Source: Sphingopyxis macrogoltabida (GTDB taxonomy: Bacteria; Pseudomonadota; Alphaproteobacteria; Sphingomonadales; Sphingomonadaceae). From it: a DNA stretch of 64,000 nucleotides. The notes beneath the pieces were generated by a model, which saw nothing but the letters and a program-made list of their open reading frames with translations, was not told the DNA's origin and did no database searches. A program made the position numbers and the translations under genes. Of the stretch, positions 19,573 through 44,569 are shown one piece after another. Position 1 is the stretch's first letter, and every line of letters begins with the position of its first letter. The stretch lies in NCBI RefSeq assembly GCF_001314325.1, contig NZ_CP009429.1, forward strand, positions 2,604,501 to 2,668,500. Reading direction: 5' to 3'.

Positions 19573-19588
19573 ATAGTATTCTAAGTAT
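19573..19588. promoter_or_regulatory. Island palindrome, site 1 (HMG-CoA lyase / CoA-transferase)
   Basis: ATAGTATTCTAAGTAT matches the 12-base core TTAGTATACTAA at 10 of 12 positions. It lies between divergent genes, 20 bases from the lyase start. The same sequence type recurs at 23189, 27589, 35481, 43409 and 44554, always in promoter regions of accessory genes. Confidence 0.65.
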
Positions 19589-19662
19589 ATCGAATCCACA
19601 AGAGTGATGCCCAGCCGGCGCAATATGCGTCATAACCCGGCCGGGGCACCGAAAGGAATGGA

Positions 19663-20820
19663 ATGACGAACACAGGGGGAGCGCTGGACGGCATCAGGGT
19701 GGTCGAGATGGGGCAGCTCATCGCCGGTCCCTTCTGCGGCCAGTTGCTCGGCGACATGGGTGCCGAGATCGTCAAGCTCGAACCGCCGGGCACGGGCGAC
19801 CAGATGCGCAACTGGGGCCAGGGCGACAAACCGAGCTGGTGGCGCGTCATCGCGCGCAACAAATATTCGGTGGCGGTCGACCTGCGCAGCGAGGAAGGTC
19901 AGGCGCTGGCGCGCGAACTGATCGCCAAGGCCGACATCCTGATCGAGAATTTCCGCCCCGGCACGCTCGAAAAATGGAACCTCGATCCCGCCGAGCTGCG
20001 CAAGACGAACCCCGGGCTGATCGTCGTGCGCGTGTCGGGCTATGGTCAGACCGGACCCTATTCGGCGCGCGCCGGCTTCGGCGGCATCGGCGAGGCGATG
20101 GGCGGCTGGCGCGGCATCGTCGGCTATCCCGACCTGCCGCCCGCGCGCATGGGCGTGTCGATCGGCGATACGCTCGCCGCGACTTACGGCTGCATGGGCG
20201 CGCTCGCGGCGCTTCATCATCGCAGCAAGACCGGCGAAGGCCAGATCGTCGACTCGGCGCTGTACGAAGCGGTGCTGCAGGTGATGGAATCGACCGTCTC
20301 CGACTATTCGGCGAGCGGCACCAAGCGGCGCCGGACGGGGTCGACGCTGCCTGCCATTGCGCCGTCGAACGTCTATCCGTGCAGCGACGGCGAATATCTG
20401 ATCGGCGCCAATCAGGACGGCGTCTTCGCCCGCCTCGCCGCAGCGATGGGACGCCCCGAACTGGCGAGCGACGAACGCTATGCGACGCACCGCGCCCGCG
20501 GCGTTCGGCAGGAGGAACTCGACGCGCTGATCGGCGAATGGACCGCGACGATGACAATCGCCGAACTGGAAGCCAAGATGGTTGCGGCAGGCGTCCCCGC
20601 GGGCCGCGTCTTCGACGCCGAAGACATGCTCGCCGACCCGCATTTCGCCGCGCGCGAGGCGCTGGTGACGGTCGCCGACGAAGAACTGGGAGAGATCCGG
20701 ATGCAGGGGGTCTTCCCGAAACTGTCGGCGACGCCCGGCAGCGTCCGCCGCCCCGCGCCGCTCACCGTCGGGCAGGATACTGGCGATGTGCTCCGCCGCT
20801 GGCTCGGCCGCGAAGGATAA
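19663..20820 (+). CDS. Class III (CaiB/BaiF) CoA-transferase
   Basis: Moves CoA between an acyl-CoA donor and a free acid. It has 385 residues, the family length. It carries the N-terminal GIRVVEMGQLIAGPFCGQLLG segment, the RNKYSVAVDLRSEEG element and Asp169 (VSIGDTLAA) at the position of the catalytic aspartate of formyl-CoA transferase. The ATG at 19663 follows GAAAGGA. It is 4 bases upstream of a frameshifted glutathione S-transferase gene and diverges from the HMG-CoA lyase. It probably activates or recycles an acid intermediate of the island pathway. Confidence 0.92.
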   Translation: MTNTGGALDGIRVVEMGQLIAGPFCGQLLGDMGAEIVKLEPPGTGDQMRNWGQGDKPSWWRVIARNKYSVAVDLRSEEGQALARELIAKADILIENFRPGTLEKWNLDPAELRKTNPGLIVVRVSGYGQTGPYSARAGFGGIGEAMGGWRGIVGYPDLPPARMGVSIGDTLAATYGCMGALAALHHRSKTGEGQIVDSALYEAVLQVMESTVSDYSASGTKRRRTGSTLPAIAPSNVYPCSDGEYLIGANQDGVFARLAAAMGRPELASDERYATHRARGVRQEELDALIGEWTATMTIAELEAKMVAAGVPAGRVFDAEDMLADPHFAAREALVTVADEELGEIRMQGVFPKLSATPGSVRRPAPLTVGQDTGDVLRRWLGREG

Positions 20821-20824
20821 GGCG

Positions 20825-21530
20825 ATGATCACCCTCTACGGCGGCCCGACCCCCCAATGCGCGCAAGATCGCGATCGCGCTGCTCGAAATGGGGCTCGCA
20901 TGGCGGCTCGAACCCGTCGATATCCTTGCGGGCGACCAGCTCACTCCCGAATTTCTCGCGCTCAACCCGAACAACAAGACGCCGGTGATCGTCGACGACG
21001 AAGGCCCGCACGGGCCGGGCTTCGTCCTGTGGGAAACCGGCGCGATCCTGCTTTACCTTGCCGAAAAGACCGGTCGCTTCCTGCCCGCCGATCCGGTGAA
21101 GCGCGCGATCTGCTGGCAATGGCTGATGTTCCAGGTCTCGGGCGTCGGCCCGATGTTCGGGCAGGAGGCGCATTTCACCCATTATGCCAGCGAGCGGCAC
21201 GACTACCCCATCGAGCGCTACAGCCGCGAGGTCGACCGGCTGATGATGGTGCTCGACAAGCGCCTCGGCGAGGCCGAATGGCTGGCGGGCGACGAATATA
21301 CGATCGCCGATATGGCCACCCTGCCCTATCTCCGCCGCCAGTTCATCGACAAGGCCGGACGCTTCCCGAACGTCGAACGCTGGGGCGCCGCGATGCTCGA
21401 ACGGCCTGCCGTCGCCGAAGGCATGAAGGTCGGGGTCGCCCGCCCCGAGACGATCGAGGGCGGGCTAAGCGGTTTCACTGACGAGCATCGCGCGATCCTG
21501 TGGGGCGACCGGCAGCATGTGAAACGGTGA
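20825..21530 (+). pseudogene. Glutathione S-transferase (Nu/YfcG-like) with +1 frameshift in a C6 tract
   Basis: The ATG at 20825 opens with MITLYGGPTP, the expected thioredoxin-fold start. The frame then breaks at the six-C run 20850-20855. Dropping one C restores NARKIAIALLEMGLAWRL and an intact remainder to 21530 that aligns throughout with the paralogues at 21913 and 26061. It is either a genuine frameshift mutation, a slippage-prone (possibly phase-variable) tract, or a sequencing error. Without correction only an N-terminally truncated protein from ATG 20889 (213 residues) is possible, lacking the first strand and the glutathione-contact loop. The rest, including the GDEYTIADMATLPY C-terminal domain, is undamaged. 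Confidence 0.8.
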
Positions 21531-21548
21531 AGCGGAAGTCGCAAAAAT

Positions 21549-21821
21549 TCATCCGCCGGGATTTTTTTCGACAAAGATTGCTACAGCCTCTGAAATTGTC
21601 GGCTTCCATAATTGAGTGTCAGATGGAAAGGCATTCAGAAACGCTTCTAATGTTCCGTGAGGAGCAATCATCTCATCAGCGCCGAGGTCTCGCCCCTCGT
21701 CGAAGGTGACATAATTGGCGAAGGCAATCCAAACCAAGCCTGTGTCCAAGTTCCGAAAACCGACATATCTCGCGGCGATCTTTGAATCCACGCGCCTCCA
21801 AACAGCTATCTCTTCAAACAT
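21549..21821 (-). CDS. Small uncharacterised protein in a low-GC patch
   Basis: A 90-residue product that I do not recognise. It is acidic-aromatic (WRRVDSKIAARYVGFRN, then TGLVWIAFANYVTFDEG) with no signal peptide, membrane segment or known motif. The surrounding 21531-21905 stretch is visibly richer in A+T than its neighbours and codon use differs, suggesting acquisition or a gene remnant. A GGGTGA sequence sits 6-7 bases before the ATG. It lies between two co-oriented-paralogue GST genes on opposite strands. It could be a genuine small protein or a decayed fragment. Confidence 0.5.
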   Translation of the reverse strand: MFEEIAVWRRVDSKIAARYVGFRNLDTGLVWIAFANYVTFDEGRDLGADEMIAPHGTLEAFLNAFPSDTQLWKPTISEAVAIFVEKNPGG

Positions 21822-21912: not shown

Positions 21913-22638
21913 TCAATCCCCCTTCACCGCCGCTTGGTTCGCTTCGCCGAACATGTTCGACCACTCCTTCTCATCCAGCGTCTGGTGCCGTCCGACATAT
22001 TTCGCCGGCGCCTTCAGATCGTCGCGCGCCATCGCCCGCGCCACCGCCGGCCGCGCCCGGATGCGTTCGAACCAGCCGTGCATCGCGGGCCATTCGTCGA
22101 GCCCCATACCCATGACGAACGCCGAGGCACGCCCGGGCCAGATCGCCATATCGGCGATCGTATAGTCGTCACCCGCGACATAGGCGCTCTTCTCCAGCCG
22201 CTTTTCGAGTACGGTGAGCAGGCGGTTCAGCTCCTTCGTATAGCGTTCGACGGCATAATCCTGTCCGGCCGGGGCATAGCGCAGGAAATGGCTCGCCTGC
22301 CCGCCCATCGGGCCCAGCCCCGCGACCTGCCAGGTCAGCCACGACAGCGTCGCGGCGCGCGCCGCACCCGATGCGGGCAGAAAGCGCCCGCTTTTTTCGG
22401 CAAGATATTGCAGGATCGCACCCGATTCAAAGACCGCAATGGGCTCGCCGCCTTCGCCGGGATCGTTATCGACGATCGCCGGCAACTTGTGATTGGGATT
22501 GATCCGTCCGAACGCCGCGGTGAGCTGGTCGCCCTCGAAGATGTCATAGGGAATGACGCGATAGGCGGCGCCGATCTCCTCGAGCATGATCGCGATCTTC
22601 TGCCCGTTCGGGGTCGCGGAATAGTGAAGATCGATCAT
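21913..22638 (-). CDS. Glutathione S-transferase, Nu/YfcG-like
   Basis: A 241-residue two-domain GST. The N-terminal thioredoxin fold starts MIDLHYSATPNGQK, where the N of TPN takes the catalytic place in this class. NPNHKLPAIVDND carries the cis-proline and FESGAILQYLAEKSG the glutathione-binding E-S pair at about residues 75-90. The C-terminal helical domain includes DDYTIADMAIWPG. The ATG at 22638 is chosen over upstream starts because the family begins there and the DUF3237 gene ends one base before. It should conjugate or deconjugate glutathione with a catabolic intermediate. It is co-transcribed with DUF3237. Confidence 0.9.
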   Translation of the reverse strand: MIDLHYSATPNGQKIAIMLEEIGAAYRVIPYDIFEGDQLTAAFGRINPNHKLPAIVDNDPGEGGEPIAVFESGAILQYLAEKSGRFLPASGAARAATLSWLTWQVAGLGPMGGQASHFLRYAPAGQDYAVERYTKELNRLLTVLEKRLEKSAYVAGDDYTIADMAIWPGRASAFVMGMGLDEWPAMHGWFERIRARPAVARAMARDDLKAPAKYVGRHQTLDEKEWSNMFGEANQAAVKGD

Positions 22639-22639
22639 C

Positions 22640-23146
22640 TCAGCGGATCTCGTGAAGGACATGGCGGACGCCGAAATCGGTGCGTTCACCGACCCCGACC
22701 GCGAGCAGGCCGTTCAGCCAGCCATATTTTACGCTCGCGGTTTCGAACACTGGCGCGATTCGCAGATAGTATCGCGACGGATCGACATCAGGCGCCGCGG
22801 GATCGGCAAAGGCGGCGCGGACATCGTCGGGAATGACGTTGCGCCCGGTGTAGGACAGATAGATGAGTTCGCCGTCATCGGTCTGCCATACCGCGCGGGC
22901 ATCGAAGGTGCCGACCGAAGCCGCCTCTCCCAGCCGTCCGCTGCGCGACCAGTTGCCGCCGCCGGGCAGGACGATACCGTTGATTCGCGGTCCGAAAAAC
23001 CGCCCGCCGCTGATATATCCCATGCGATGATCGCCGAATGGCGACACGCCCATTCCGATGATGCCGCCGCCGACCTCGAACTCCACCGTGCACAGATGGG
23101 TGCTTGCGAGAGCGGGATAACCGGCTTCTCCATTTTCATCGTTCAT
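22640..23146 (-). CDS. DUF3237 family protein
   Basis: A 168-residue protein with the DUF3237 beta-barrel pattern: LCTVEFEVGGG, GRFFGPRINGIVLPGGGNW, and a C-terminal VKYGWLNGLLAVGVGERT. No enzymatic role is established for the family, but its members recur in aromatic and xenobiotic catabolic clusters. It lies 1 base upstream of a GST on the same strand, so the two are probably co-translated. Its promoter region, shared with the divergent TonB receptor gene, contains the only perfect copy of the island palindrome. Confidence 0.85.
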   Translation of the reverse strand: MNDENGEAGYPALASTHLCTVEFEVGGGIIGMGVSPFGDHRMGYISGGRFFGPRINGIVLPGGGNWSRSGRLGEAASVGTFDARAVWQTDDGELIYLSYTGRNVIPDDVRAAFADPAAPDVDPSRYYLRIAPVFETASVKYGWLNGLLAVGVGERTDFGVRHVLHEIR

Positions 23147-23188
23147 CTTGCGAATCCTCTTCCAAAGCTATGGACAAGCATAAAACCA

Positions 23189-23204
23189 TTAGTATACTAA
23201 GGGT
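23189..23204. promoter_or_regulatory. Island palindrome, site 2 (perfect copy, DUF3237-GST / TonB receptor)
   Basis: TTAGTATACTAA at 23189-23200 is a perfect 12-base palindrome followed by GGGT. It lies in the 123-base divergent region between the DUF3237-GST unit and the second TonB receptor. It is the best match among the six sites and is used here as the core reference. Confidence 0.7.
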
Positions 23205-23269: not shown

Positions 23270-25567
23270 ATGAAGGCGTTCAACCAGATTCTGTTGTCGG
23301 GAGTCGCGACGGTCGCGATGACGGCATTCGCCGCGCCGGCGCTGGCGCAGACGGCGGCCGCAGAAGCCGACGACAGCAACACGAACGAAATCATCGTCAC
23401 CGCGCAAAAACGCGAACAGAGCCTGCAGGACGTGCCGATTTCGATGGAAGTCGTCAGCGGCGCCAAGCTCGCCGAGTTCAACACCAGCGACATCAAGGCG
23501 GTGATGAACTACACGCCGAACGTCTTCGTCCAGTCGACCGCGGGCAACGACGTCATCTATATCCGCGGTTTCGGTTCGCCGCCGGCGAACTTCGCCTTCG
23601 ACCAGTCGGTCTCGCTCTATGTCGACGGCATCTACGCCGGCCGCAGCCGCCAGGCGCAGGCGCCCTTCTTCGACCTCGAACGTGTCGAAGTGCTGCGCGG
23701 CCCGCAGGGTGCGCTGTTCGGCAAGAACACTGCGGCGGGCGCGGTCAGCGTCGTGTCGGCCGGGCCGACCAGCCAGGCCGAGGGCGCCTTCACCGCGCTC
23801 TATAATTTCGACCACAAGGGCTTCGACGTCTCGGGCTATGTCTCGGGCCCGCTCAGCAGCACGCTGTCGGCACGCCTTGCGTACAAGATCGTCAAGCAGG
23901 ACGGCTATATCCGCAACCTCGCGACCAATCACGACGATCCCGAAACCAAGTCGCAGCTCGCGCGCCTGACCGTCAAGTGGGAGCCGTCGAACGACTTCGA
24001 CTATACGCTGAAGGCCGAATATGGGAACCGCGACATCGTCGGCGGGATCACCGTGTCGAGCCCGCTGACCAGTGGCCAGGATCCGCAGGACACGCGCTAT
24101 CTCGAACGCTCGGCGCTCGGCCGCGAAGGCAACCGCAATGAATCGGTGATGATCTCGGGCGTCGGCAACCTCGCACTCGGCGATTTCACCCTGACCTCGG
24201 TCACCGGCTATAGCTGGTTCAAGTCGAAGATCACCAACGGCTTCGACCAGACGATCCCGAACAGCGGCGGCGCGCATACCGTCAACTCGGTCTACAACGC
24301 CTTCCCCGAACGCTTCGACCAGTTCTCGCAGGAAATCCGCATCCTGTCGCCGGTCGGCGAAACCTTCGAATTCATCGTGGGCGCCTATTACGACAAGTCC
24401 GACTATACGCTGGAACAATATCAGGGCTTCAACATCCCCAACCTGTTCCTTTCGATCCCCGGCGCGACGCCGACCGATCCCCGCATCCCGATCTTCGACG
24501 GTCCGTATCTGGCCCGCATCGACAGCATTTTCCGCCAGAAGGCCGAAAGCTGGTCGGTCTTCGGACAGGGCACGCTCAATATCAGCGATGCCTTCCGCGC
24601 GATCGGCAGCCTGCGCTATTCGCACACCAAGAAGGACGGCAGCTTCCGAACCACGCTGGCGTCGGCTTCGAACGGCCTCAACGGACAGCCCTTCCCGCTG
24701 CGTCCGATCACCAACGCCGACGGCTCGATCAGCGAGGGCAATGTCGATCCTTCGGTGACGCTGCAATATGACATCGCCCCGCGCATCATGGTCTACGGGA
24801 CCTGGGGCCGCGGGTCGAAATCGGGCGGTTTCGTGTCGAACACGCTCGGCACCGTCGACAGCACCTTCACCTTCGAACCCGAACGGTCGGAGAATTTCGA
24901 GGCGGGCATCAAGTCGACGCTGCTCGACGGCAAGCTCGTCGCCAACGTCTCGGTCTACAAGACGAAGTTCAAGGACCTGCAGGTCTCGGTCTACCAGCCC
25001 GCGACGTCGAGCTATCTGACCGGCAATGCCGCCGCCGCGACGTCGAAGGGGGTCGAAGGATCGCTCAGCATCTTCCCGGTCCCCAATTTCGACATCAGCG
25101 CCTCGGCCGCCTATTCGGACATCAAATATGACGATTATCCGGGCGCCGCGTGCCTCGCGTCGCAGCCGGTGACCTGTACCCCGGCGACGAACAACCTCGC
25201 CGGCTTCCCGGTCGCCTATTCGTCGAAGTGGACGGGCAGCGTCACCGCGCATGCGCGCTTCGACATGTCCGATGCGATGAAGCTCGACATCACCGGCGTC
25301 GCCGCCGGCCGCTCGAAATATTTCAATTCGGACAACCAGAGCCCGATCTTCGGCGTCCAGGGCGGTTATGTGAAGCTCGACCTGCGCGTCCAGCTCGCCG
25401 ATCAGGACGATCGCTGGCATCTCGCGCTGGTCGGCAAGAATCTGACCAACCAGAAGACGATCGGCAGCGCGTTCAACCTGCCGGCGCCGATCACGCCGGT
25501 TCCGCGCGCGATCCTCTACCTCGAACCCACCCGCAACATTTCGGTCGAGGCCGGGTTCAAGTTCTGA
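23270..25567 (+). CDS. TonB-dependent outer-membrane receptor
   Basis: A 765-residue receptor. A signal peptide (MKAFNQILLSGVATVAM to ALAQ, about 26 residues) is followed by the NEIIVTAQKREQSLQDVPIS box, a plug with FDLERVEVLRGPQGALFGKN, and a barrel ending in aromatic Phe (VEAGFKF). ATG 23270 is preferred to the ATG at 23213 because it follows AGGGAGGG and opens the signal peptide. The stop overlaps the next start by one base (TGATG), so a SnoaL-like enzyme and a GST are co-translated. This links uptake directly to metabolism of the imported compound. The ligand is unknown. Confidence 0.93.
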   Translation: MKAFNQILLSGVATVAMTAFAAPALAQTAAAEADDSNTNEIIVTAQKREQSLQDVPISMEVVSGAKLAEFNTSDIKAVMNYTPNVFVQSTAGNDVIYIRGFGSPPANFAFDQSVSLYVDGIYAGRSRQAQAPFFDLERVEVLRGPQGALFGKNTAAGAVSVVSAGPTSQAEGAFTALYNFDHKGFDVSGYVSGPLSSTLSARLAYKIVKQDGYIRNLATNHDDPETKSQLARLTVKWEPSNDFDYTLKAEYGNRDIVGGITVSSPLTSGQDPQDTRYLERSALGREGNRNESVMISGVGNLALGDFTLTSVTGYSWFKSKITNGFDQTIPNSGGAHTVNSVYNAFPERFDQFSQEIRILSPVGETFEFIVGAYYDKSDYTLEQYQGFNIPNLFLSIPGATPTDPRIPIFDGPYLARIDSIFRQKAESWSVFGQGTLNISDAFRAIGSLRYSHTKKDGSFRTTLASASNGLNGQPFPLRPITNADGSISEGNVDPSVTLQYDIAPRIMVYGTWGRGSKSGGFVSNTLGTVDSTFTFEPERSENFEAGIKSTLLDGKLVANVSVYKTKFKDLQVSVYQPATSSYLTGNAAAATSKGVEGSLSIFPVPNFDISASAAYSDIKYDDYPGAACLASQPVTCTPATNNLAGFPVAYSSKWTGSVTAHARFDMSDAMKLDITGVAAGRSKYFNSDNQSPIFGVQGGYVKLDLRVQLADQDDRWHLALVGKNLTNQKTIGSAFNLPAPITPVPRAILYLEPTRNISVEAGFKF

Positions 25568-26064
25568 TGTCCCGGGGCCCGGCCGCGATCGACGCTTTCC
25601 TCGACAGGGAAGCGGCGGTCGCGGTCGTGACCTCCTATGCGTCGGCGCTCGATGCGCGCGACTGGGTCGCGTACCGCGCCCTCTTCACCGACGAGATCGC
25701 GATCGATTATGGCGCGATCGGCTCGCTCATCGCGACGGTGCCCGCGGACGAGTGGACGAACCGCTGCAAGACGCTCGAAGGCTTCGACGCGACCGCGCAC
25801 CGCCTGCACAATATCGTCGCGACGATCGACGGTGACCATGCGACGGTGGCGAGCATCGTCGATGCCGTCCATCTCGTCGGGATCGAGGACCGCGCGCTGC
25901 TCGGCGACCTGATCGGGCGCTACACGCATCGGCTGGTGCGGCACGGCGGGTGGAAGATCGCCGGCGTGACATTGACCGTCGTCGGCTATCCTGCCGGAAA
26001 GGAGGCGTTCGAAGCCGCCTTCGCCGCCGCACGCGCCATTTTCGCCGAAGGAAGTACCGGATGA
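25567..26064 (+). CDS. SnoaL/NTF2-like polyketide-cyclase-fold protein
   Basis: A 165-residue protein of the SnoaL_4 type. It has AVVTSYASALDARDWVAYRALFTDE (residues 17-41), the AHRLHNIVATIDGDHATV core and a C-terminal WKIAGVTLTVVGY strand. Members act as small dehydratases, isomerases or ring-hydroxylation accessory subunits. The start overlaps the TonB receptor stop by 1 base, and the stop overlaps the GST start by 4 bases (ATGA). No catalytic assignment is possible from the sequence alone. Confidence 0.85.
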   Translation: MSRGPAAIDAFLDREAAVAVVTSYASALDARDWVAYRALFTDEIAIDYGAIGSLIATVPADEWTNRCKTLEGFDATAHRLHNIVATIDGDHATVASIVDAVHLVGIEDRALLGDLIGRYTHRLVRHGGWKIAGVTLTVVGYPAGKEAFEAAFAAARAIFAEGSTG

Positions 26065-26771
26065 TCGATGTCTATTTCACCCCCACGCCGAACGGCCACA
26101 AGGTGTCGATCATGCTCGAAGAGACCGGGCTGGCGCATAATCTGATCGCGATGAACATGCTCGAGGGCGATCATCTGACCCCCGAATATCGCCGCATCAA
26201 CCCCAACGGCCGCCTCCCCGCCATCGTCGATCACGACCCCGTCGGTGGCGGCGCGCCGCTACCGGTGTTCGAAAGCGGCGCGATCCTGCTCTATCTCGCG
26301 GAGAAGAGCGGGCAGTTGCTCCCCGCCGATCCGCGCCGCCGGTCGCAGGCGCAACAATGGCTGATGTGGCAGATGGCAAGCTTCGGTCCGATGCAGGGTC
26401 AGGCGCATCATTTCATCCGCTACGCGCCCGAAGGACAGAGCTATCCCGTCGAACGCTATCGCAACGAAACGCTGCGCCTGCTCCATGTCCTCGACGGTCG
26501 GCTACGCGAAGCCGAGTATCTGGCGGGCGAATATTCGATCGCCGACATCGCATGCTGGCCATGGACGCGGGCGATCCGCGCGATCGGCCTGACCCTCGAC
26601 GATTATCCGGCGGTCGCCGACTGGTTCGCGCGGATCGGCGAACGCCCGACGGTGATCGCCGGCACCGACGTCAAGAATGCCGCCAACCTGTCGAGCGCGC
26701 GGCCGGTGCTGACCGAGGAGCAATGGTCGAACCTGTTCGGCAAGAATATGCTCGAAGCGCCGATCCGCTAA
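26061..26771 (+). CDS. Glutathione S-transferase, Nu/YfcG-like
   Basis: A 236-residue GST paralogous to those at 20825 and 21913. It starts MIDVYFTPTPNGHK, with NPNGRLPAIVDHDP, FESGAILLYLAEKSG and EYSIADIACWPW, the same order and spacing of elements. It is the third gene of the TonB receptor-SnoaL-GST unit, coupled by an ATGA overlap. The stop overlaps the convergent SDR gene by 4 bases. It probably handles a reactive (epoxide, quinone or ether) intermediate of the imported substrate; this role is inferred. Confidence 0.9.
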   Translation: MIDVYFTPTPNGHKVSIMLEETGLAHNLIAMNMLEGDHLTPEYRRINPNGRLPAIVDHDPVGGGAPLPVFESGAILLYLAEKSGQLLPADPRRRSQAQQWLMWQMASFGPMQGQAHHFIRYAPEGQSYPVERYRNETLRLLHVLDGRLREAEYLAGEYSIADIACWPWTRAIRAIGLTLDDYPAVADWFARIGERPTVIAGTDVKNAANLSSARPVLTEEQWSNLFGKNMLEAPIR

Positions 26772-27575: not shown

Positions 27576-27606
27576 TTGACAGATAAACTTAAATACCTAA
27601 GTATTT
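27576..27606. promoter_or_regulatory. TTGACA promoter element and island palindrome, site 3 (SDR / MFS operon)
   Basis: TTGACA at 27576-27581 is followed after 17 bases by AAGTAT, a possible -10 for the MFS operon. Overlapping it, TTAAATACCTAAGTAT (27589-27604) shares the CTAAGTAT half of the other island sites. Its left half is diverged (7 of 12 core matches), though AAATAC-CTAA-GTATTT at 27591-27606 is itself a palindrome. If bound, it would cover the -10 region. Confidence 0.5.
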
Positions 27607-29823: not shown

Positions 29824-29834
29824 GGAGCAGACAC

Positions 29835-30230: not shown

Positions 30231-30240
30231 GGAGTTAGCC

Positions 30241-33101: not shown

Positions 33102-33127
33102 CAAGTGTTTCTACTGGGAAGCACTCC

Positions 33128-33158: not shown

Positions 33159-33222
33159 GCGACCTTGTCGCGGCCGGACGAAAGCGCGATAGGATGCCGG
33201 CAACCAACGGAAAGGTCCGGCC

Positions 33223-35433: not shown

Positions 35434-35480
35434 TTCGCTCTCCCCAATTCCATTTCGCGCTCCTGTTTCGCTTGAATTAG

Positions 35481-35496
35481 ATAGAATACTAAGTAA
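35481..35496. promoter_or_regulatory. Island palindrome, site 4 (acyl-CoA synthetase / MetE-like)
   Basis: ATAGAATACTAAGTAA matches the core at 10 of 12 positions. It sits in the 97-base divergent region, 48 bases from the ligase start and 34 from the MetE-like start, well placed to control both directions. Confidence 0.65.
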
Positions 35497-36687: not shown

Positions 36688-36691
36688 ATGC

Positions 36692-37384
36692 TTAGCCGTC
36701 GATAAAATCCCTCAGCAACGGCACCACCAGCTCCGGTGCCTCGACCGTCGGCAGATGCCCCGCGCCCGCAATCACTTCGAGCCGCGCCCCCGGAACCGCA
36801 TCCACAATCTCGTCATGGTGCGCCCGGCTGGTGATGCCGTCCTTCTCGCCCCAGATCAGCAGCGTCGGCACCGCGATCTCGCCGAGCCGCGGGCGGCTGT
36901 CGATGCGCGCCATGATCGCGCGCTGCTGCGCGAGGAAGGTGTCGGCGCCCGTATCGGCCGCCATCGCCCGCGCGATGGCGAGCAACCGTTCGTCATTCCG
37001 CTTCTCTTCGGGAAAGAGGATCGGGATGCGCTCCTCGACGACCCGGTCGAAATTGCCGCTCTCGACAAGGTCGATATAGCCTTGCCGCCGCGCCGTCTGC
37101 GCCGGACCGTCAGCCGAGGCGAGCGTCGAGATCAGCGCGAGCTTCGCGACGCGTCCGGGCGCGCGGCGCATCACCTCGAACGCGACGAAACCGCCCATCG
37201 CGTGCGCAACCAGCGCGAATTTGGGCGGCGCATTGTCGAGCAGCCGCTGCGCGAAGCCCTCGATCGTATCGTCGCTGCGATTGTCGGCGACAATCACCTC
37301 GCGGTCCGCCCAGGCATCGAGGAGCGGCTGCCACACGGCATCGGTCAAAAGCTGACCGGTAATCAGAACGATGGGAAGCGACAT
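36692..37384 (-). CDS. Alpha/beta-hydrolase-fold protein without the nucleophilic serine
   Basis: A 230-residue alpha/beta-hydrolase. The elbow reads VAHAMGG: Ala62 occupies the nucleophile position (codon GCG, genomic 37199-37201) where relatives have Ser. The acid (WGEKDGI) and histidine (GAGHLPTVE) remain. A normal ester hydrolysis mechanism is therefore unlikely. It could be a cofactor-free lyase/dioxygenase-like member, a binding protein, or inactive. Start ATG 37384 overlaps the upstream dehydrogenase stop by one base, so it is the last gene of the six-gene operon beginning at 43372. Confidence 0.85.
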   Translation of the reverse strand: MSLPIVLITGQLLTDAVWQPLLDAWADREVIVADNRSDDTIEGFAQRLLDNAPPKFALVAHAMGGFVAFEVMRRAPGRVAKLALISTLASADGPAQTARRQGYIDLVESGNFDRVVEERIPILFPEEKRNDERLLAIARAMAADTGADTFLAQQRAIMARIDSRPRLGEIAVPTLLIWGEKDGITSRAHHDEIVDAVPGARLEVIAGAGHLPTVEAPELVVPLLRDFIDG

Positions 37385-38304
37385 TAGACCACCTGATGAA
37401 GAAGCGGCTCGCCCGCCGCGAGGCGACGGCAATTCTCGTGCGCCACGGTGAGGCTGCGCACCAGCGTTTCGGGCGTGAGCCAGGCGATATGCGGCGCGAG
37501 CACCGCGTTGGGCAGCCCGAGCAGCGGATTGCCGCGCGGCAACGGCTCTTCGGCGAAGACATCGAGCCCGGCGCCGCGCAAATGCCCCGACGTCAGCGCT
37601 TCGACCAGCCGTGCCTGATCGACCAGCTCGCCGCGCGCGGTGTTCACCAGCACCGCACCCTTTTTCATCGCAAACGGATCGATGCTCGCCCGCGTCCCGT
37701 CGGTCAGCGGCATATGAAGCGACACGATATCGCTTTCGGCCAGCAGCTGGTCGAGCGGCATAAATTCATAAGGCACGTCGCGCGGGCTGCGCGCGGTATA
37801 GACGACCTTCGCGCCCAGCGCCGCGAGCACCGGCGCGAGGAGCTGCGCCGAATTGCCGAAACCGACCAGCCCCACCGTGCGCCCGCCGATCTCGCCGACG
37901 CTGTCGAGTTCAGACGGGTCGGCACTCCAGCCTTCACCGGCACGCGTCCGCGCATCGAAGAAGCAGGTGCGGCGCAGCACCGCCATCATCAACGACAGCG
38001 CCATTTCGGCGACCGCCTGGCTGTTCGTGCCGGGCATGTTGCAGACCGCGACTTTATGGTCGCGCGCGGCATCGAGCGCGATCGTGTTCACGCCAACGCC
38101 GAGCTTCTGGATCAGTTTGAGGTTCGGTGCCGAGGCGATGAACGCCGGCGTCACCGGGGTCAGGACGTGGAGCAGCGCGGTGATTTCGCCCGCCACCTCG
38201 TCGAGCGGCGCTGCCTCGTCGACATGCACGACGACGCCCGCCCCGAAGATCGCATCGACGGCCTCGCGAAAGCCGGGGCTCGGCCGGGCGTGAAGGACGA
38301 TCAT
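37384..38304 (-). CDS. D-2-hydroxyacid dehydrogenase, NAD(P)-dependent
   Basis: A 306-residue enzyme of the D-isomer-specific 2-hydroxyacid dehydrogenase family. It has KLGVGVNTIAL, the Rossmann motif GLVGFGNSAQ (about residues 139-148), catalytic Arg in VNTARGELVD, Glu in FAEEPLP and His in LAPHIAWLTPE. It interconverts a 2-keto acid and a D-2-hydroxy acid. The ATG at 38304 overlaps the enolase stop by 4 bases. It follows kinase and enolase-like genes, so its substrate may be the enol/keto acid released by the enolase-type step. Confidence 0.92.
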   Translation of the reverse strand: MIVLHARPSPGFREAVDAIFGAGVVVHVDEAAPLDEVAGEITALLHVLTPVTPAFIASAPNLKLIQKLGVGVNTIALDAARDHKVAVCNMPGTNSQAVAEMALSLMMAVLRRTCFFDARTRAGEGWSADPSELDSVGEIGGRTVGLVGFGNSAQLLAPVLAALGAKVVYTARSPRDVPYEFMPLDQLLAESDIVSLHMPLTDGTRASIDPFAMKKGAVLVNTARGELVDQARLVEALTSGHLRGAGLDVFAEEPLPRGNPLLGLPNAVLAPHIAWLTPETLVRSLTVAHENCRRLAAGEPLLHQVV

Positions 38305-39599
38305 GCTGCCACTCGCCCGATCGATCCAGCAAAGGCCGAGAAGCCCGCGAACACTGCATCGCCGCCCATCGCTTCCTCGATCCGCAGCATCTCGTTCCAC
38401 TTCGCCATGCGTTCGGAGCGCGTGAAGCTGCCGACCTTCAATTGCCCGGCATTCCAGCCGGTCGCGAGATGCGCGATCGTGACATCCTCGCTCTCGCCCG
38501 AGCGCGCCGAAACGATCGCCCCCCAACCGCGCGCCACCGCGGCGTCGAGCGCCGCCTTCGCCTCGGTCACCGTGCCGACCTGGTTGACCTTGATCAGCGC
38601 CGCGTTGCACACCGCCGCCTCGACCGCCCGTTCGACACGCGCCGCGCTGGTGACGAGGACGTCGTCGCCGATGATCTGGACGCGCTCGCCGATCGCCGCG
38701 GTGACGGCGGCCATCGCCGTCCAGTCGTCCTGCCCCGCGGGGTCCTCGATCGACAGGATCGGATAGCGACCCGCCCATTCGACGATCCGTGCCGCCATTT
38801 CCTCGCCCGACAAGCGCCCGTCGTCGAGCGCGAGATTATAACCATCGGCATCGCCCAACTCGTTCGCCGCGATGTCAAGCGAGATGAACACCTCCTCGCC
38901 CGCGCGGTGCCCGCTCGCCTCGATCGCCTTGGTCAGCGTGTCCAGCGCATCCTCGTTCGATGCGAAATTGGGCCACCAGCCGCCCTCGTCGGCGACGCCC
39001 GACAAGGGCCCCTTGGCTTCCATCAGCTTGCCCGCGGCGCGATAAACATCGTCGGTGATTTCGAGCGCGCGGCGGAAGCTTCCGGCCTTCGGGCACATGA
39101 TCATGAAATCCTGTACGTCGGTGCGCCGCCCGGCGTGAGCGCCGCCGCCGAAAATCTGGATTTCGGGAAGCGGTACGCGCACCTTGCGCCCCTCGGCCAG
39201 ATAGCGCCACAACGGCTCGCGCGCGTCCGCCGCGGCAGCGTGCAGCACCGCCATCGACACCGCGACAACGGCATTCGCGCCGAGCCGCGCCTTGTTCGGC
39301 GTGGCGTCGAGATCGCATAGCGTCTTGTCGACCGCGGCCTGGTCGCGCGCGTCCATGCCCGCGAGCGCACCCGCGATCTCGGCGCCGATCCCTGCAACCG
39401 CACCATTCACCCCGAAGCCGCCAAATGCCGCACCGCCATCGCGCAGGTCGATCGCTTCATGCGCCCCTCGCGAAGCGCCGGCGGGAGCGATCGCGCGGCC
39501 GATGGCGCCCGATTCCAGCACAACCTCGGCCTCGACGGTGGGCCGGCCGCGCGAATCCCAGAGCTGGCGGCCGGTGACGGAGGCGATACGCGAAGTCAT
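38301..39599 (-). CDS. Enolase paralogue with altered active site
   Basis: A 432-residue enolase-family protein. The metal ligands Asp242, Glu285 and Asp312, and Glu205, Lys337, Lys388 and His155, are all retained. The position equivalent to yeast His373 is Ala365 (VSARSGES instead of VSHRSGE), Glu168 is Asp164, and the loop SGASTG is AGASRG. Such changes are not expected in the glycolytic enzyme. It overlaps kinase and dehydrogenase genes by 4 bases on either side, far from any glycolytic gene. It probably performs an enolase-type dehydration or elimination on a different, perhaps phosphorylated, acid. That it is an enolase homologue is certain; the reaction is inferred. Confidence 0.88.
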   Translation of the reverse strand: MTSRIASVTGRQLWDSRGRPTVEAEVVLESGAIGRAIAPAGASRGAHEAIDLRDGGAAFGGFGVNGAVAGIGAEIAGALAGMDARDQAAVDKTLCDLDATPNKARLGANAVVAVSMAVLHAAAADAREPLWRYLAEGRKVRVPLPEIQIFGGGAHAGRRTDVQDFMIMCPKAGSFRRALEITDDVYRAAGKLMEAKGPLSGVADEGGWWPNFASNEDALDTLTKAIEASGHRAGEEVFISLDIAANELGDADGYNLALDDGRLSGEEMAARIVEWAGRYPILSIEDPAGQDDWTAMAAVTAAIGERVQIIGDDVLVTSAARVERAVEAAVCNAALIKVNQVGTVTEAKAALDAAVARGWGAIVSARSGESEDVTIAHLATGWNAGQLKVGSFTRSERMAKWNEMLRIEEAMGGDAVFAGFSAFAGSIGRVAA

Positions 39600-40576
39600 G
39601 CAAGGTTCCTTTTCCAGTTGGCGACCAGTTCGCCGAGCGGCGACGGGCGGGCGATCAGCGCCCGCGCCTGATCGCGCACGATGTTTTTATGTTCGGGGTC
39701 GGTCAGATACGGCGCCGGCGACTTGCCCTCGACCCGGGCGAGAAGCAGCGCCGCGGTCAGTTTGCCCGCGCGTAGCATCAGCCCGTCGGCATCTTCCCAG
39801 TCGATCCCGGCGCGATAGGCGTCGACCAGCGCCGCCGCCGCATCGTTCAGCCGCGCGTCGCCCGACCACACCGCCTTGAGCAACAGGTGCGTGGTGCAAA
39901 AGGCGAGGTCGAAGGCCGGATCGCCATAGACCGCGCATTCGGCGTCGAGAAACACCGGGCCATCGGCGCTGACGAGGATATTCTTCGGGCTGACGTCGCC
40001 ATGGGCCAGCGCGATCTTGCGCCCCGAAAGATCGTCGGCAAGCGCAGTGAGGACGGGCGCGAGTTCGGCGTCATGCCGCGCGACATGGAGCAGGAACGGA
40101 TCGACGCGCAGCGCGCGGAACATCTCGTCGTTCGGGAAGTCGGCGCGATCGCTTTCGTTATGCGCGGTCGCGGCGTGAACCGCCGCGATGCCGGTACCGA
40201 CCTGCGCCGCGAAAGCGACGTCGACACGTCCCGCCATCAGCTCGTCTTTCCACACCGGACAGCCGGGCAGGAAGCGCATCGCAAAGGCATGCCCCGTCGG
40301 CAGTTCGGCGAGAACTTCGGGCGCGAGCCGCGGATCGACCCCGCGCGCACGCCGCAACCAGCGGACCTCGCTCGTCCCGCGTTCGACCGGCGCGAGCCAT
40401 TCGGCGGCGACGCGAAGCTGGGGCAGCGGGCGTTTGACGACGATCGGACCGGTCGGCGTCTCGACCTTCCACACATCGCACGACACGCCGCCGGTCAGCG
40501 GCTGAAGGACGACGTCGCCCTCGCCCGTCAGACCGGCGTCGCGCAATCCGGCAATGATTTCGGCCTCCGCCGTCAC
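39596..40576 (-). CDS. APH/choline-kinase-fold small-molecule phosphotransferase
   Basis: A 326-residue aminoglycoside-phosphotransferase-fold protein. It has the GGVSCDVWKVE nucleotide loop (29-39), VVKRP lysine, catalytic HGDVSPKNIL (192-201) and metal-binding DAE (211-213). The family phosphorylates hydroxyls of small molecules; methylthioribose kinase and homoserine kinase II are relatives. Start is GTG 40576. It sits 1 base after the hydrolase gene and overlaps the enolase paralogue by 4 bases, pointing to sequential phosphorylation and elimination. Antibiotic resistance is not suggested by the context. Confidence 0.87.
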   Translation of the reverse strand: MTAEAEIIAGLRDAGLTGEGDVVLQPLTGGVSCDVWKVETPTGPIVVKRPLPQLRVAAEWLAPVERGTSEVRWLRRARGVDPRLAPEVLAELPTGHAFAMRFLPGCPVWKDELMAGRVDVAFAAQVGTGIAAVHAATAHNESDRADFPNDEMFRALRVDPFLLHVARHDAELAPVLTALADDLSGRKIALAHGDVSPKNILVSADGPVFLDAECAVYGDPAFDLAFCTTHLLLKAVWSGDARLNDAAAALVDAYRAGIDWEDADGLMLRAGKLTAALLLARVEGKSPAPYLTDPEHKNIVRDQARALIARPSPLGELVANWKRNLA

Positions 40577-40577
40577 G

Positions 40578-41711
40578 TCACAGCTTCTCCCGGATCCACG
40601 CGCCGACGAGGTCGGCGGCGTTCTGGCGCTCTTCTATCGAATCCTCGAAATAATGCGCACCGGTGATCAGTTCGAGCTTCTTGTCGGTCGAACCGAGGAA
40701 ATCGAAGATCTTGCGCGCGTCGCTCGGGAAAACGCCGGTATCGGCTGTCCCCTGCACGACCAGCGCGGGCGTATCGTGCTTGGCGAGGTGCGGCTGCCCC
40801 TGACATGGCGAGGTTTCGAGGCTCCACATGTTGAGCCAGGTTTTCAGCGTGTTGGCGCGGCCGATGCTCGGCGTGCGGTTCGCGGTCGCGGGATCGCCGC
40901 GATAGCACCAGTTCGGCTTGCGGTCCGACGGATCGATCGCCGGATCGACGCAGCGGATGTCGCCCCAGCAACGGAACATCGGAAAGATGCGATCGGGAAT
41001 GCCCGCGGCATTGAGGCGCGCCAGTTCGGCCTTCGCCCAGTCGGTGATCCGCTGGTTGCGCGCGCGCTGCCCGGCGCGGTATTTTTCGATGAACGCGTCC
41101 GAATAGGGCGGGCCATTGTCGGGGTTGAACGGATCGAGTTCGGGGTCGGTTGCGACGGGATCATTCTCGTCGATCACCGACGCGTCCATCCAGTCGGTCA
41201 GCACTTCGGGACGCCCCTGGTGGGCGTTGAAGCTGATATAGAGATCGCCCTTGATGAGGCTCGCCAGCGCATCCTGCCCCACCGAGGGCAGCCGGTCGGT
41301 CAAGGTCGGCGCGATCGCCTCGGCCTGATAGGCGCCCATCAGCGAGCCGCCGCCCGAATTGCCGAGGATGACGATCTGCTCGACCCCGGCCTCTTCCTTC
41401 AGCCATTTCATGCCGACGCCGATGTCGAGCACCGCATGTTCGAGCAGGAACTGGTCTTCGAAGCCGCGATAGCGCGTGTTCCAGCCGAGGAACCCGATGC
41501 CCTGCCGCGCAAAATAGGGCGCGATATAATGTTCGGAGAAATCGACATTATAGTGGGTGGCGATGACCGCCACCTTCGGGCGCTTGCCCGCCTCGGTCCA
41601 ATAGATGCCCTGGCACGGATGGCCGCCCGCCTGAATGCGCGGCGCGGTCGGCGACACGCGCCCGATAAATTGCGCGTCCAGTCCTGCGATCCCGTTCGGG
41701 TCCACCATCAT
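40578..41711 (-). CDS. Alpha/beta-hydrolase
   Basis: A 377-residue hydrolase. The nucleophile motif is GNSGGG (about residues 117-122), preceded by WNTRYRGFEDQFL and an ATHYNVDFSEH oxyanion region. The acid Asp in QGTADTGVFP and histidine in GAHYFEDS complete the triad. A large cap of about 150 residues separates elbow and acid. Two consecutive ATG codons (41711, 41708) are possible starts. It is the second gene of the six-gene operon. A carboxylesterase or thioesterase role on a CoA-linked or esterified substrate is plausible. Confidence 0.85.
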   Translation of the reverse strand: MMVDPNGIAGLDAQFIGRVSPTAPRIQAGGHPCQGIYWTEAGKRPKVAVIATHYNVDFSEHYIAPYFARQGIGFLGWNTRYRGFEDQFLLEHAVLDIGVGMKWLKEEAGVEQIVILGNSGGGSLMGAYQAEAIAPTLTDRLPSVGQDALASLIKGDLYISFNAHQGRPEVLTDWMDASVIDENDPVATDPELDPFNPDNGPPYSDAFIEKYRAGQRARNQRITDWAKAELARLNAAGIPDRIFPMFRCWGDIRCVDPAIDPSDRKPNWCYRGDPATANRTPSIGRANTLKTWLNMWSLETSPCQGQPHLAKHDTPALVVQGTADTGVFPSDARKIFDFLGSTDKKLELITGAHYFEDSIEERQNAADLVGAWIREKL

Positions 41712-41737
41712 CGTCTCTCCTGATTATCTGCTTGGGT

Positions 41738-43372
41738 TCAGCGGGTCACTTCGAAGGGCAGCTTATATCCCTCCAGCCCGGCACGGATCGCCTTCTTGTC
41801 GATCTTGCCCGTCGGCCCGAGCGGGATTTCGTCGACGAACAGCACGTCGTCGGGCATCCACCAGCGGGCGATCTTGCCGTCAAGATACGCCTTCAAATCG
41901 TCGGCGGATGCCGTGCCGCCGTCCTTGAGCTGGCAAAGCAGGATCGGCCGCTCGTCCCACTTCGGATGCGCGACGCCGACGACCGCGGCGTTGGCGACCG
42001 CGTCATGCCCCATCGCGATATTCTCGATCTCGATCGAGCTGATCCACTCGCCGCCCGACTTCACGACATCCTTCGCGCGGTCGGTGATCTGCATATAGCC
42101 TTCGCCGTCGATCGTGCTGACGTCGCCGGTGTCGAAAAACCCTTCGGCATCGAGCACGTCGCCGCCCTCGCCGCCGAAATAGCCGCGCGCGATCGTCGGC
42201 CCCTTGATCATCAGCCGTCCCGGCGTCTTGCCGTCGTGCGGCAGCCGATTTCCTGCATCGTCGACCAGCTTCATCTCGAGCCCGCAGAGCAGCCGCCCCT
42301 GCTTCAGCTTGTACGCCATCTGCGCGTCATCGCCCTTCGCCGCGACCGACGCATTGGGCACCGATACTGTGCCGAGCGGCGAGGTTTCGGTCATGCCCCA
42401 GCCCTGGATGACGTCGACGCCATAATCGTCGCGAAAGGTGCGGATGATCGATTCCGGACACGCCGAGCCGCCGATCGTCACCCGCTCCAGCGTCGTGAAG
42501 CGCTTGCCGTTTTCCTGCATATAGGTGAGCAGCATCTGCCACACGGTCGGCACGGCGGCCGAATAGGTCACCCCCTCTTCCTCGATCAGGTTATAGATCG
42601 ACTCGCCGTCCATCCGCTGGCCGGGCAACACGAGTTTCGCGCCGACCGCGGGCGCCGAGTAGACGACGCCCCACGCATTGGCATGGTACATCGGCACGAC
42701 CAGCAGCACCGTATCGCGCGCAGACAGCGCCAGCGCGTCGCGCTGCAACGTCATCAGCGCGTGGATATAGTTCGACCGGTGCGAATAGAGCACGCCCTTG
42801 GGGTTGCCCGTGGTCCCGCTGGTGTAACAAAGCCCGCAGGCGGCATTTTCGTCGAAGCCGCCCCAGTCATATTCCGCCGGCTGCCCCGCGATCCAGTCGT
42901 CGAAGGCGATCGCCTCGAAATCGGTTTCCGGCAGCGACGCCGCGTCGCAAAAGAAGATCACCTTTTCGATCGACGGCACCTGCGGCAGCAGTTCCGCGAC
43001 CAGATCGGCAACCGCCGGATCGGCGATCAGCAGCCGGTCGCCGGCATGGTCCGCGATATAGGCGATCTGTTCGGGAAACAGCCTGGGATTGAGCGTGTGG
43101 AGCACCGCGCCCATCCCCGCCGCGCCATACCATGCCGCAAGATGGCGCGCGCCGTTCCAGCCCATCGTCGCGACACGGTCGCCCGGCTTGATCCCCTCGC
43201 CGGCGAGCGCATTCGACACGCGCTTCGCATCGGCGTGGATGTCGGCATAGGTCGAACGGGTGACGCGCCCTTCGGCATCGCGCGAGACGATCTCGCGGTC
43301 GCCGTGCCAGTTCGCCGCATGATCGATGATCCGGTCGACCGTCAGCGGCACATTCTGCATCAATCCGTCCAT
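41738..43372 (-). CDS. AMP-dependent acyl-CoA synthetase, long/medium-chain type
   Basis: A 544-residue ligase of the AlkK/FadD-like branch. It has YTSGTTGNPKGVLYSHRS (about residues 187-204), the QGWGMTETSPLG segment, FFDTGDVSTID, KSGGEWISSIEIE hinge and C-terminal PTGKIDKKAIR with the catalytic lysine. It is the first gene of the operon running to 36692. An island palindrome lies 37 bases before its ATG. It should load a free acid onto CoA; the other genes of the operon presumably act before or after it. Confidence 0.93.
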   Translation of the reverse strand: MDGLMQNVPLTVDRIIDHAANWHGDREIVSRDAEGRVTRSTYADIHADAKRVSNALAGEGIKPGDRVATMGWNGARHLAAWYGAAGMGAVLHTLNPRLFPEQIAYIADHAGDRLLIADPAVADLVAELLPQVPSIEKVIFFCDAASLPETDFEAIAFDDWIAGQPAEYDWGGFDENAACGLCYTSGTTGNPKGVLYSHRSNYIHALMTLQRDALALSARDTVLLVVPMYHANAWGVVYSAPAVGAKLVLPGQRMDGESIYNLIEEEGVTYSAAVPTVWQMLLTYMQENGKRFTTLERVTIGGSACPESIIRTFRDDYGVDVIQGWGMTETSPLGTVSVPNASVAAKGDDAQMAYKLKQGRLLCGLEMKLVDDAGNRLPHDGKTPGRLMIKGPTIARGYFGGEGGDVLDAEGFFDTGDVSTIDGEGYMQITDRAKDVVKSGGEWISSIEIENIAMGHDAVANAAVVGVAHPKWDERPILLCQLKDGGTASADDLKAYLDGKIARWWMPDDVLFVDEIPLGPTGKIDKKAIRAGLEGYKLPFEVTR

Positions 43373-43408
43373 GTCGGCACGACTCTCCCTCGTTCATTCG
43401 TTAAAAGC

Positions 43409-43424
43409 ATAGTATGCTAAGTAT
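43409..43424. promoter_or_regulatory. Island palindrome, site 5 (six-gene operon / marR)
   Basis: ATAGTATGCTAAGTAT matches the core at 10 of 12 positions. It lies in the 153-base divergent region between the acyl-CoA synthetase that heads the operon and the MarR regulator gene, so it may be the autoregulatory site. Confidence 0.7.
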
Positions 43425-43525
43425 TTTGCTTTTGCAATGCCGCTCCGCCTTGCCTCGCCTCCGCCCTTCTTCTAGCGTAAAACTGTTGGCGCTCGGCCGG
43501 CAAACGGGGGAAATCGCGGCTCTTC

Positions 43526-43960
43526 ATGCGCACCAATCAGCTTATTATCGCTCTTTTCCAGCGTTTCTGCTGGCTCGACGAGGGCCTGCAGGCGCGGCTG
43601 CACGATCGCGGCTGGCCCGATGTCAGCCGCCCGCAATCGATGGTGATGACCAACATCGTCAGCGGCATCGTGCGCCCGTCGGACATTGCGCGCAACCTCG
43701 GCGTGTCGCGGCAGGCGATCCACAGCACGATCGGCCAGATGGTCAAGCTCGGCATCGTCGAACTCGCGCCCGATCCCGGCGACCGGCGACATATGATCGT
43801 GTCGCTGACCGAAACCGGCGCCCGGATGCGGCATGATGCGCAGCGCGCGATGGACGCGCTGTCCGACCAGTTGGCCGAAAGGCTGGGCCACGAACGCTTC
43901 GACGCGCTGCTCGCGACGCTCGAAGCCGACTGGGGCGACAATATCGAGCGGACGCGCTAG
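43526..43960 (+). CDS. MarR-family transcriptional regulator
   Basis: A 144-residue winged-helix protein. The recognition unit is RPSDIARNLGVSRQAIHSTIGQMVKLGIVEL, and the wing DPGDRRHMIVSLTETG holds the DxRxx MarR signature. N- and C-terminal helices would form the dimer interface. It is divergent from the six-gene operon with palindrome site 5 between, and convergent with the FMN reductase (4-base overlap), whose promoter carries site 6. It is the best candidate in the window for the protein that reads the palindrome. The effector could be a CoA thioester or free acid. Confidence 0.9.
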   Translation: MRTNQLIIALFQRFCWLDEGLQARLHDRGWPDVSRPQSMVMTNIVSGIVRPSDIARNLGVSRQAIHSTIGQMVKLGIVELAPDPGDRRHMIVSLTETGARMRHDAQRAMDALSDQLAERLGHERFDALLATLEADWGDNIERTR

Positions 43961-44532
43961 CCCGAAAGCGCCCTCGCGACCGCAACCAGCCGGCCCGTCG
44001 TCATCTCGACCAGCGACGCCGGCAGCGCTTCCTTCAGGCTTCCGTCCTCGGCGAACGCCGCGTGGGCATTCGGCACCACGACCTGTTCGGGGATCACCAG
44101 CATCTGGATCGTGGACAGGATCTGCCGCAAATGCATCAACCCGCGCAGCCCGCCGAAGGGACTGATCGATGCCGACATGATCGCCGCCGCCTTGCCGCGA
44201 TAGGCGGTCAGCGCGACGAGGCCCTCGCCGCCGGTCGGCCGCGATGCCCAGTCGATCGCATTCTTGAGCAGCGGCGGCAGCGAGCCGTTATATTCGGGCG
44301 ACACGAACAGCAGCCCGTCCTGCGCCGCGAAAATGTCCTTGAGCCGCTGTGCATCGGGCGGAAAATCATTCGCCTCGAGCGCCGCCGAATAGAGCGGCAG
44401 GTCGAACGTCGCCAGATCGACGCGCGTCAGGGCGGCACCCTGCGCCGCAAGACTCGCGGCGGCGAGGTCACCGAGCATAAGATTGAACGATCCCTCGCGC
44501 GTGCTGCCGACGATTACCGCAATGCTGGTCAT
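43957..44532 (-). CDS. NAD(P)H-dependent FMN reductase family
   Basis: A 191-residue flavodoxin-fold protein. It starts SIAVIVGSTREGSFN (residues 3-17, phosphate-binding GSxRxxS/N), has FVSPEYNGSLPPLLKNAIDWASRP (about residues 75-98), the signature of the family, and MSASISPFGG. It should supply reduced flavin or reduce quinones/azo compounds. Its upstream region contains palindrome site 6. It overlaps the convergent MarR gene by 4 bases. Confidence 0.9.
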   Translation of the reverse strand: MTSIAVIVGSTREGSFNLMLGDLAAASLAAQGAALTRVDLATFDLPLYSAALEANDFPPDAQRLKDIFAAQDGLLFVSPEYNGSLPPLLKNAIDWASRPTGGEGLVALTAYRGKAAAIMSASISPFGGLRGLMHLRQILSTIQMLVIPEQVVVPNAHAAFAEDGSLKEALPASLVEMTTGRLVAVARALSG

Positions 44533-44553
44533 TTTCCCTCCCGGACAAAATAA

Positions 44554-44569
44554 TTAGAATACTAACCTA
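44554..44569. promoter_or_regulatory. Island palindrome, site 6 (FMN reductase)
   Basis: TTAGAATACTAACCTA matches the core at 11 of 12 positions. It lies 21 bases upstream of the reductase start codon on the minus strand. It is the last site at the right edge of the island. Confidence 0.65.

Follow-up and report, generated by a model that had tools for sequence, protein, structure and literature searches.

A conserved palindrome as the probable operator of a MarR-family regulator in a Sphingopyxis gene island

A stretch of 64,000 nucleotides from Sphingopyxis macrogoltabida (C1:2604501-2668500 of a 5.75-Mb genome, 5749 kb; this whole stretch is called the window below) carries an island of accessory genes, and a first-pass annotation made from the letters alone had drawn attention to an AT-rich palindrome that recurs in six of its intergenic regions (sites A to F; Table 1). 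The question that this locus raises is whether the palindrome serves one common regulator and, if so, which protein reads it. Our analysis suggests that a MarR-family switch protein very probably docks at this palindrome and governs the island as a single unit. That MarR1, encoded by marR1 in the window itself, is the operator-binding repressor and co-regulates a dispersed catabolic regulon appears reasonably probable from sequence comparisons.

Three patterns were scanned, namely the 12-mer TTAGTATACTAA, the symmetric 16-bp form ACTTAGNATNCTAAGT, and the 14-mer CTTAGTATACTAAG. All five near-copies of TTAGTATACTAA in the first-pass annotation were recovered in the window with the match counts given there, at 19573 (10/12), 23189 (12/12), 35481 (10/12), 43409 (10/12), and 44554 (11/12), and no other 12-mer of the window comes within three mismatches. 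The claim that they exceed chance is borne out by 100 dinucleotide shuffles of the window, which yielded 0.01 near-copies on average and never more than one. Because the window holds no other match, thiG/S, aroQ, and accBC are indeed not preceded by a site; guaB was not among the genes identified. Comparison of the sites leads to a longer symmetric form, ACTTAG-N4-CTAAGT, which may be the ideal form of an operator with the predicted core [T/A]TAG-N4-CTAA. The centres of its half-sites are separated by about 10 bp, the spacing that a dimer bound to one face of the DNA should require. The site at 27589, formerly called partial, has five mismatches to the 12-mer (counted by eye) and three to ACTTAGNATNCTAAGT, and it counts as the sixth site, being among the genome-wide places of ACTTAGNATNCTAAGT. 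In contrast, a half-site proposed at 5049 (TAAGTATCGTTA) had to be dropped, with four mismatches, one arm only, and no second arm. Our own gene calls agree that divergent starts flank five of the six sites and that the remaining one, at 44554, stands before one gene.

Genome-wide, ACTTAGNATNCTAAGT is found with up to three mismatches at 15 places (versus 28 for the reversed pattern), ten of which, all six sites of the window among them, fall within 80 kb between 2.624 and 2.704 Mb. The binomial value for this clustering, 8e-16, is overstated because pattern and interval were picked after the sites had been seen. The four places of this group outside the window surround a second MarR gene, marR2, located 52 kb from marR1. 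For TTAGTATACTAA, 14 places with at most two mismatches (versus 52 for the reversed pattern) comprise the five in the window, C1:2701332, and eight elsewhere; two of these eight (L004 and L012) lie inside called coding sequence and six look intergenic.

Conservation was studied in 46 loci (835,513 bases) that were fetched with MarR1 as query and are thus not an unbiased sample; most are from Sphingopyxis, others from Sphingomonas, Novosphingobium, Polymorphobacter, and Sphingosinicella. They contain 172 matches to the 12-mer versus seven to its reverse, and 100 permuted motifs gave a mean of 3.2 and a maximum of 30. Although intergenic bases make up 9.1% of these loci, 171 of the 172 matches are intergenic, compared with 130 of 317 pooled matches of the permuted motifs; the lone exception (L077) stands before marR1 at the customary position and perhaps reflects a miscalled gene. 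Elsewhere in the genome the motif is rare, and the coding DNA of these loci hardly contains it; the refuting outcome that the first-pass annotation had named, a motif as frequent in random or coding regions, was not observed. Orientation could be assigned for 169 sites (118 divergent, 50 minus-minus, 1 plus-plus) and not for the remaining three, and the triplet TAG and the tetrad CTAA carry 1.95-2.0 bits in these matches, which were pre-selected at no more than two mismatches. In 45 of the 46 loci the motif lies within 400 bp upstream of marR1, at 60-130 bp in 44 and at -384 in L047; the 12-mer scan found none in this interval in L086. Even where gene order has changed and the hydroxymethylglutaryl-CoA-lyase gene stands beside marR1 (L084, L085, and L087-L089, mostly Sphingomonas), the motif is still located between them.

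Promoter alignments with seven to nine relatives (G013 reversed for B and C and without A in its stretch; G001 lacking A, B, and C) give the same picture site by site. The core ATAGCATTCTAA of site A is kept in all seven aligned relatives, TTAGTATACTAAGG of site B in all eight, ATAGAATACTAA of site D in all nine, and TTAG...CTAA of site F in all nine, and site C is recognisable in seven of eight, the exception being G059. Mean identity to the window inside the 16-bp sites A to F (0.93, 0.97, 0.88, 0.95, 0.80, and 0.87) exceeds that of the rest of the respective intergenic region (0.50, 0.70, 0.68, 0.69, 0.64, and 0.51) at all six, in a comparison of six to eight relatives from which the near-identical G019 was left out. 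Several near-copies in one region might also be a dispersed repeat or the remnant of a mobile element instead of operators. However, similarity between sites extends over only about 16-20 bp and each site stays at its own promoter while the flanks diverge, and by these conservation data the explanation is exceedingly improbable.

Two further features of these promoters may be mentioned. At the divergent promoters A, D, and E the left half-site reads ATAG, not TTAG, in nearly all aligned relatives, and the same bases perhaps double as a minus-strand -10 element (TACTAT). Directly adjoining site B, at 23203-23217, there is a second palindrome, GTCAATCAGATTGAC, identical in seven of eight aligned relatives and with a single base changed in G059. 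It was discarded as the motif of a second regulon, since the genome has one exact match to it and, with up to three mismatches, 111 forward-strand matches versus 10 for the reversed pattern.

Sites A, B, and F coincide in part with promoter-like -10 hexamers, at B in the arrangement TGGACA-N16-TATACT, and such an overlap would suit a repressor. On the minus strand upstream of marR1, TTGC[AC]A-N17-TACTA[TC] is present in 34 of the 46 loci, a pattern that was written after reading the alignment and has no control. One could argue that sites which contain TATACT-like hexamers, as several do, and overlap promoter-like matches are just ordinary -10 elements of AT-rich promoters with no dedicated regulator, as the first-pass annotation itself had considered. 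Yet both half-sites are conserved, beyond the -10 hexamer, and the element is symmetric; its 14 and 15 genome places are strongly clustered, and its presence goes with marR1. We regard this explanation as very unlikely.

How closely the motif and marR1 go together was followed in 80 genomes of the genus Sphingopyxis, the one of the window included. Sixty of them possess MarR1, as judged by a match of more than 200 bits, with one stop inside the matched stretch in G004 and G061; the remaining 20 include G041, which holds a 47% paralogue. All 60 genomes with marR1 carry at least two copies of CTTAGTATACTAAG, allowing up to two mismatches, as do two of the 20 that lack it. Mean copy numbers are 4.8 and 0.4, respectively, and among the genomes lacking marR1 there are 14 with no copy, four with one, and two with two. 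Counts of the reversed motif are alike in both groups (2.65 and 2.0, p 0.16).

Which protein reads the palindrome is less evident. Searches against PDB sequences matched MarR1 to MarR-type proteins (best E 5e-6), and none of the NCBIfam MarR equivalogs listed, 11 for MarR1 and 18 for MarR2 (HpaR, BilQ, Saro_0803, SlyA, and others), reaches its cut-off. MarR2 might be the operator-binding repressor, or both MarR proteins might recognise these palindromes, with divided or common targets. The only place in the genome with zero mismatches, ACTTAGAATACTAAGT, precedes marR2, lying between it and a leuD-like gene. Moreover, a MarR2 match of more than 220 bits exists in all 60 marR1-positive genomes (the G055 copy with an internal stop) as well as in G026 and G034, and MarR2 is encoded in the fetched marR1 locus in 45 of 46 cases. 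In contrast, G026 and G034, which have MarR2 and no MarR1, show no site with up to three mismatches before marR2, and their CTTAGTATACTAAG counts are 1 and 0. In addition, the recognition helix of MarR2 is variable at its start from paralogue to paralogue (20 aligned sequences) while the half-sites persist; an Arg-Gln pair in the recognition helix of MarR1 is shared by all 28 sequences aligned. We consider an involvement of MarR2 in one of these forms possible, if rather unlikely; MarR1 seems to be the likelier binder, and the data separate MarR2 from it only weakly. The FMN reductase gene is the neighbour of marR2 in most relatives.

Paralogous loci provide a second view. Fifteen loci with a MarR1 paralogue were counted (L115, L116, L118, L123, and L124 were not counted, and L125 and L126 were not analysed), and they contain 22 pairs of the form [AT]TAG-N4-CTA[AT] versus 11, 3, 7, 1, and 1 for five scrambled half-sites. 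Each of the 15 loci shows such a pair, but the sole one of L152 lies inside a ligase-like stretch, which leaves 14 of 15 as positive; most pairs adjoin a TonB receptor or a receptor-sulfatase pair. A MarR2 homologue is missing from the fetched stretch of five of the 14 positive loci (L120, L122, L153, L154, and L161), and paralogues of both MarR proteins, a point in favour of MarR2, occur in nine of the 15 (L117, L119, L121, and L155-L160). A more elaborate proposal, which we hold to be doubtful, is that two co-conserved MarR proteins of different subfamilies share one palindrome family and split targets or act jointly, ATAG...CTAAG sites near marR1 and symmetric ACTTAG...CTAAGT sites near marR2 marking the split. 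Such a two-MarR module would have spread by duplication, complete with receptors and operators of its own, to further sphingomonad islands and would serve an undescribed pathway with glutathione-type enzymes and a private set of enolase, kinase, and 2-hydroxyacid dehydrogenase. The paralogous islands L117, L119, L159, and L160 possess both MarR paralogues, FMN reductase, TonB receptors, sulfatase, and the same half-sites, and here the module seems to be duplicated. Next to another TonB receptor there are two motif copies with two mismatches (L118:9973 and 10140, in G068), and the 20-kb stretch yielded no MarR homologue; these copies are perhaps a target in trans.

Several observations weigh against MarR1 as the repressor of a regulon defined by this palindrome. 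The Fisher value for the co-occurrence (5e-16) is too strong because the genomes are related. A close orthologue of the ABH39 hydrolase is encoded in none of the 20 marR1-negative genomes, two having 39-40% matches, and the co-occurrence is therefore confounded, island and regulator having been lost together; as a means of telling MarR1 apart from loss of the island it had to be abandoned. Two of these genomes, G042 and G076, each keep one place with TTAG and CTAA intact, among eight places listed for seven marR1-negative genomes, although no recognisable island gene stands beside either. Conversely, G037, outside the 46-locus set, has marR1 with no site of up to two mismatches nearby, and a site with three mismatches is located about 1.4 kb upstream. 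The eight genome matches of TTAGTATACTAA outside the 80-kb stretch have no explanation, and promoter-like matches number 4 versus a shuffle value of 1.9 in one scan and 4 versus 1.1 in another. With respect to the paralogous loci, all 14 positive ones belong to genomes in which MarR1 and MarR2 are present as well, so that their sites may be read by either protein in trans and the loci were of no use for telling the two apart; L152, from G041, the only genome of this set with neither protein, has no half-site pair at its receptor. G034 has one F-like site behind marR2. Finally, MarR2 fits almost as well as MarR1, and of the earlier proposal that one regulator, perhaps the MarR protein at 43526, acts on the palindromes of the island, the general idea is supported and the choice of protein is less certain in view of the second MarR.

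If MarR1 is the repressor, as we favour, the switch might work as follows. A MarR dimer, most likely of MarR1, would place one winged helix-turn-helix on each half-site, and its occupancy of operators over promoter-like -10 hexamers would keep RNA polymerase from transcribing in one direction or in both. By analogy with characterised MarR proteins, e.g., DesR and Saro_0803, a compound of the pathway would release the protein, which would switch on uptake genes (TonB receptors and MFS) together with those for CoA ligases, GST-type enzymes, and enolase and kinase, as well as marR1 itself.

About 27 genes of the window stand in runs that adjoin the six sites (Table 1), among them five GST-fold proteins, two SDRs, and two acyl-CoA ligases. 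Genes were called by codon usage, domains were assigned with Pfam and NCBIfam, and operon boundaries were inferred from spacing. In the run at 36692-43372 a CoA ligase has beside it a full paralogue of enolase (465 bits, cut-off 300), an APH-type kinase, and a 2-hydroxyacid dehydrogenase. Around marR2 there are leuD- and leuC-like, TonB-receptor, and sulfatase genes. Elsewhere in the window, a run at 5092-11645 (nitronate-monooxygenase-like, RPE65-like oxygenase, acyl-CoA ligase, and two thiolase-like genes) has no such operator in front, and an Xre/MbcA-type antitoxin and RES-domain toxin pair is encoded at 11708-12815.

Table 1. Coordinates of putative operators, regulator genes, and genes beside the sites (seven-digit positions are genome coordinates on C1, all others positions in the window).
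Feature	Position	Strand	Sequence or context	Match or score
Operator A	19571..19586		ACATAGTATTCTAAGT; HMG-CoA-lyase-like (-) / class III CoA-transferase (+)	1 mismatch to ACTTAGNATNCTAAGT
Operator B	23187..23202		CATTAGTATACTAAGG; DUF3237 (-) / TonB-dependent receptor (+)	12/12 core
Operator C	27587..27602		ACTTAAATACCTAAGT; SDR (-) / MFS (+)	3 mismatches to ACTTAGNATNCTAAGT
Operator D	35479..35494		AGATAGAATACTAAGT; acyl-CoA ligase (-) / MetE C-terminal-like (+)	
Operator E	43407..43422		GCATAGTATGCTAAGT; six-gene operon (-) / marR1 (+)	
Operator F	44552..44567		AATTAGAATACTAACC; upstream of FMN reductase (-)	11/12 core
Site outside window	2698050		before another receptor	
Site outside window	2701330		between marR2 and leuD-like gene	
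Sites outside window	2703510, 2703593		both between leuC-like gene and TonB receptor	
marR1, MarR-family regulator, 144 aa	43526..43960	+		Pfam MarR_2 41.6 bits, cut-off 27
marR2, second MarR gene, 168 aa	2700656-2701159 (L003)		outside window	
Hydroxymethylglutaryl-CoA-lyase-like	18612..19553	-		NCBIfam NF004283 292 bits, cut-off 246
CoA-transferase III and GST	19663..21530	+		
DUF3237 and GST	21913..23146	-		
TonB-dependent receptor, SnoaL-like, GST	23270..26771	+		
SDR oxidoreductase	26768..27535	-		
Run of MFS, SDR, SnoaL-like, CMD, SMP-30, GST, glyoxalase-fold, GST	27644..33855	+		
AMP-dependent acyl-CoA ligase	33868..35433	-		
MetE C-terminal-domain-like protein	35531..36583	+		Pfam Meth_synt_2
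Six genes: hydrolase, 2-hydroxyacid dehydrogenase, enolase, APH-type kinase, hydrolase-like, acyl-CoA ligase	36692..43372	-		
NADPH-dependent FMN reductase	43957..44532	-		

An unannotated island thereby becomes one testable regulon with a defined putative operator. The list of sites links genes some 50 kb away, namely the leuC/leuD-like genes and those for another receptor and a sulfatase, to one probable pathway, and the operator can be used in reporters to search for the inducer and, through it, the substrate.

The type of switch is familiar, but this regulator, its list of targets, and the compound sensed seem to be undescribed. Among the matches listed, the open-licence PMC literature contains no description of the motif or the regulon and nothing relevant on the pathway of the island enzymes; the motif sequence itself matched two papers with titles on other subjects. 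HucR of Deinococcus reportedly recognises half-sites TACTTAG/CTAAGTA, which are close to the present ones but stand farther apart and belong to a uricase target. With regard to other reports, the MarR regulator named in the available text of PMC5343134 concerns tyrosine degradation in other taxa, in that of PMC6771000 MarR is mentioned once, in a list, and PMC12352068 describes in vitro binding sites of 44 factors of N. aromaticivorans, MarR proteins included.

Closest in kind are two systems of sphingomonads. According to the pertinent parts of PMC6888825, DesR from Sphingobium sp. SYK-6 is a MarR-type negative regulator, short inverted repeats precede several catabolic promoters as well as desR itself, and binding of DesR is inhibited by vanillate and syringate; however, its 15-bp repeats (e.g., GTTTGTGTCACATAC) are unlike the present motif and its targets are three, desB, ligM, and desR. 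Similarly, the MarR-like Saro_0803 from Novosphingobium aromaticivorans has a 22-bp A/T-rich site near a -10 box, with an inverted repeat over the -10, and is released by resveratrol, as stated in the excerpted text of PMC10046596, but that repeat is GCAATA...TATTGC and one promoter is concerned. With the NCBIfam model of Saro_0803, MarR1 scores 25 and MarR2 39 bits (cut-off 200). A third likeness is to CouR from Rhodococcus, in the sections of PMC4737184 at hand a MarR-type repressor of an aromatic-acid pathway that is released by a CoA thioester, and the present island has two acyl-CoA ligases; organism and pathway differ, and the comparison covers the regulator and the kind of pathway.

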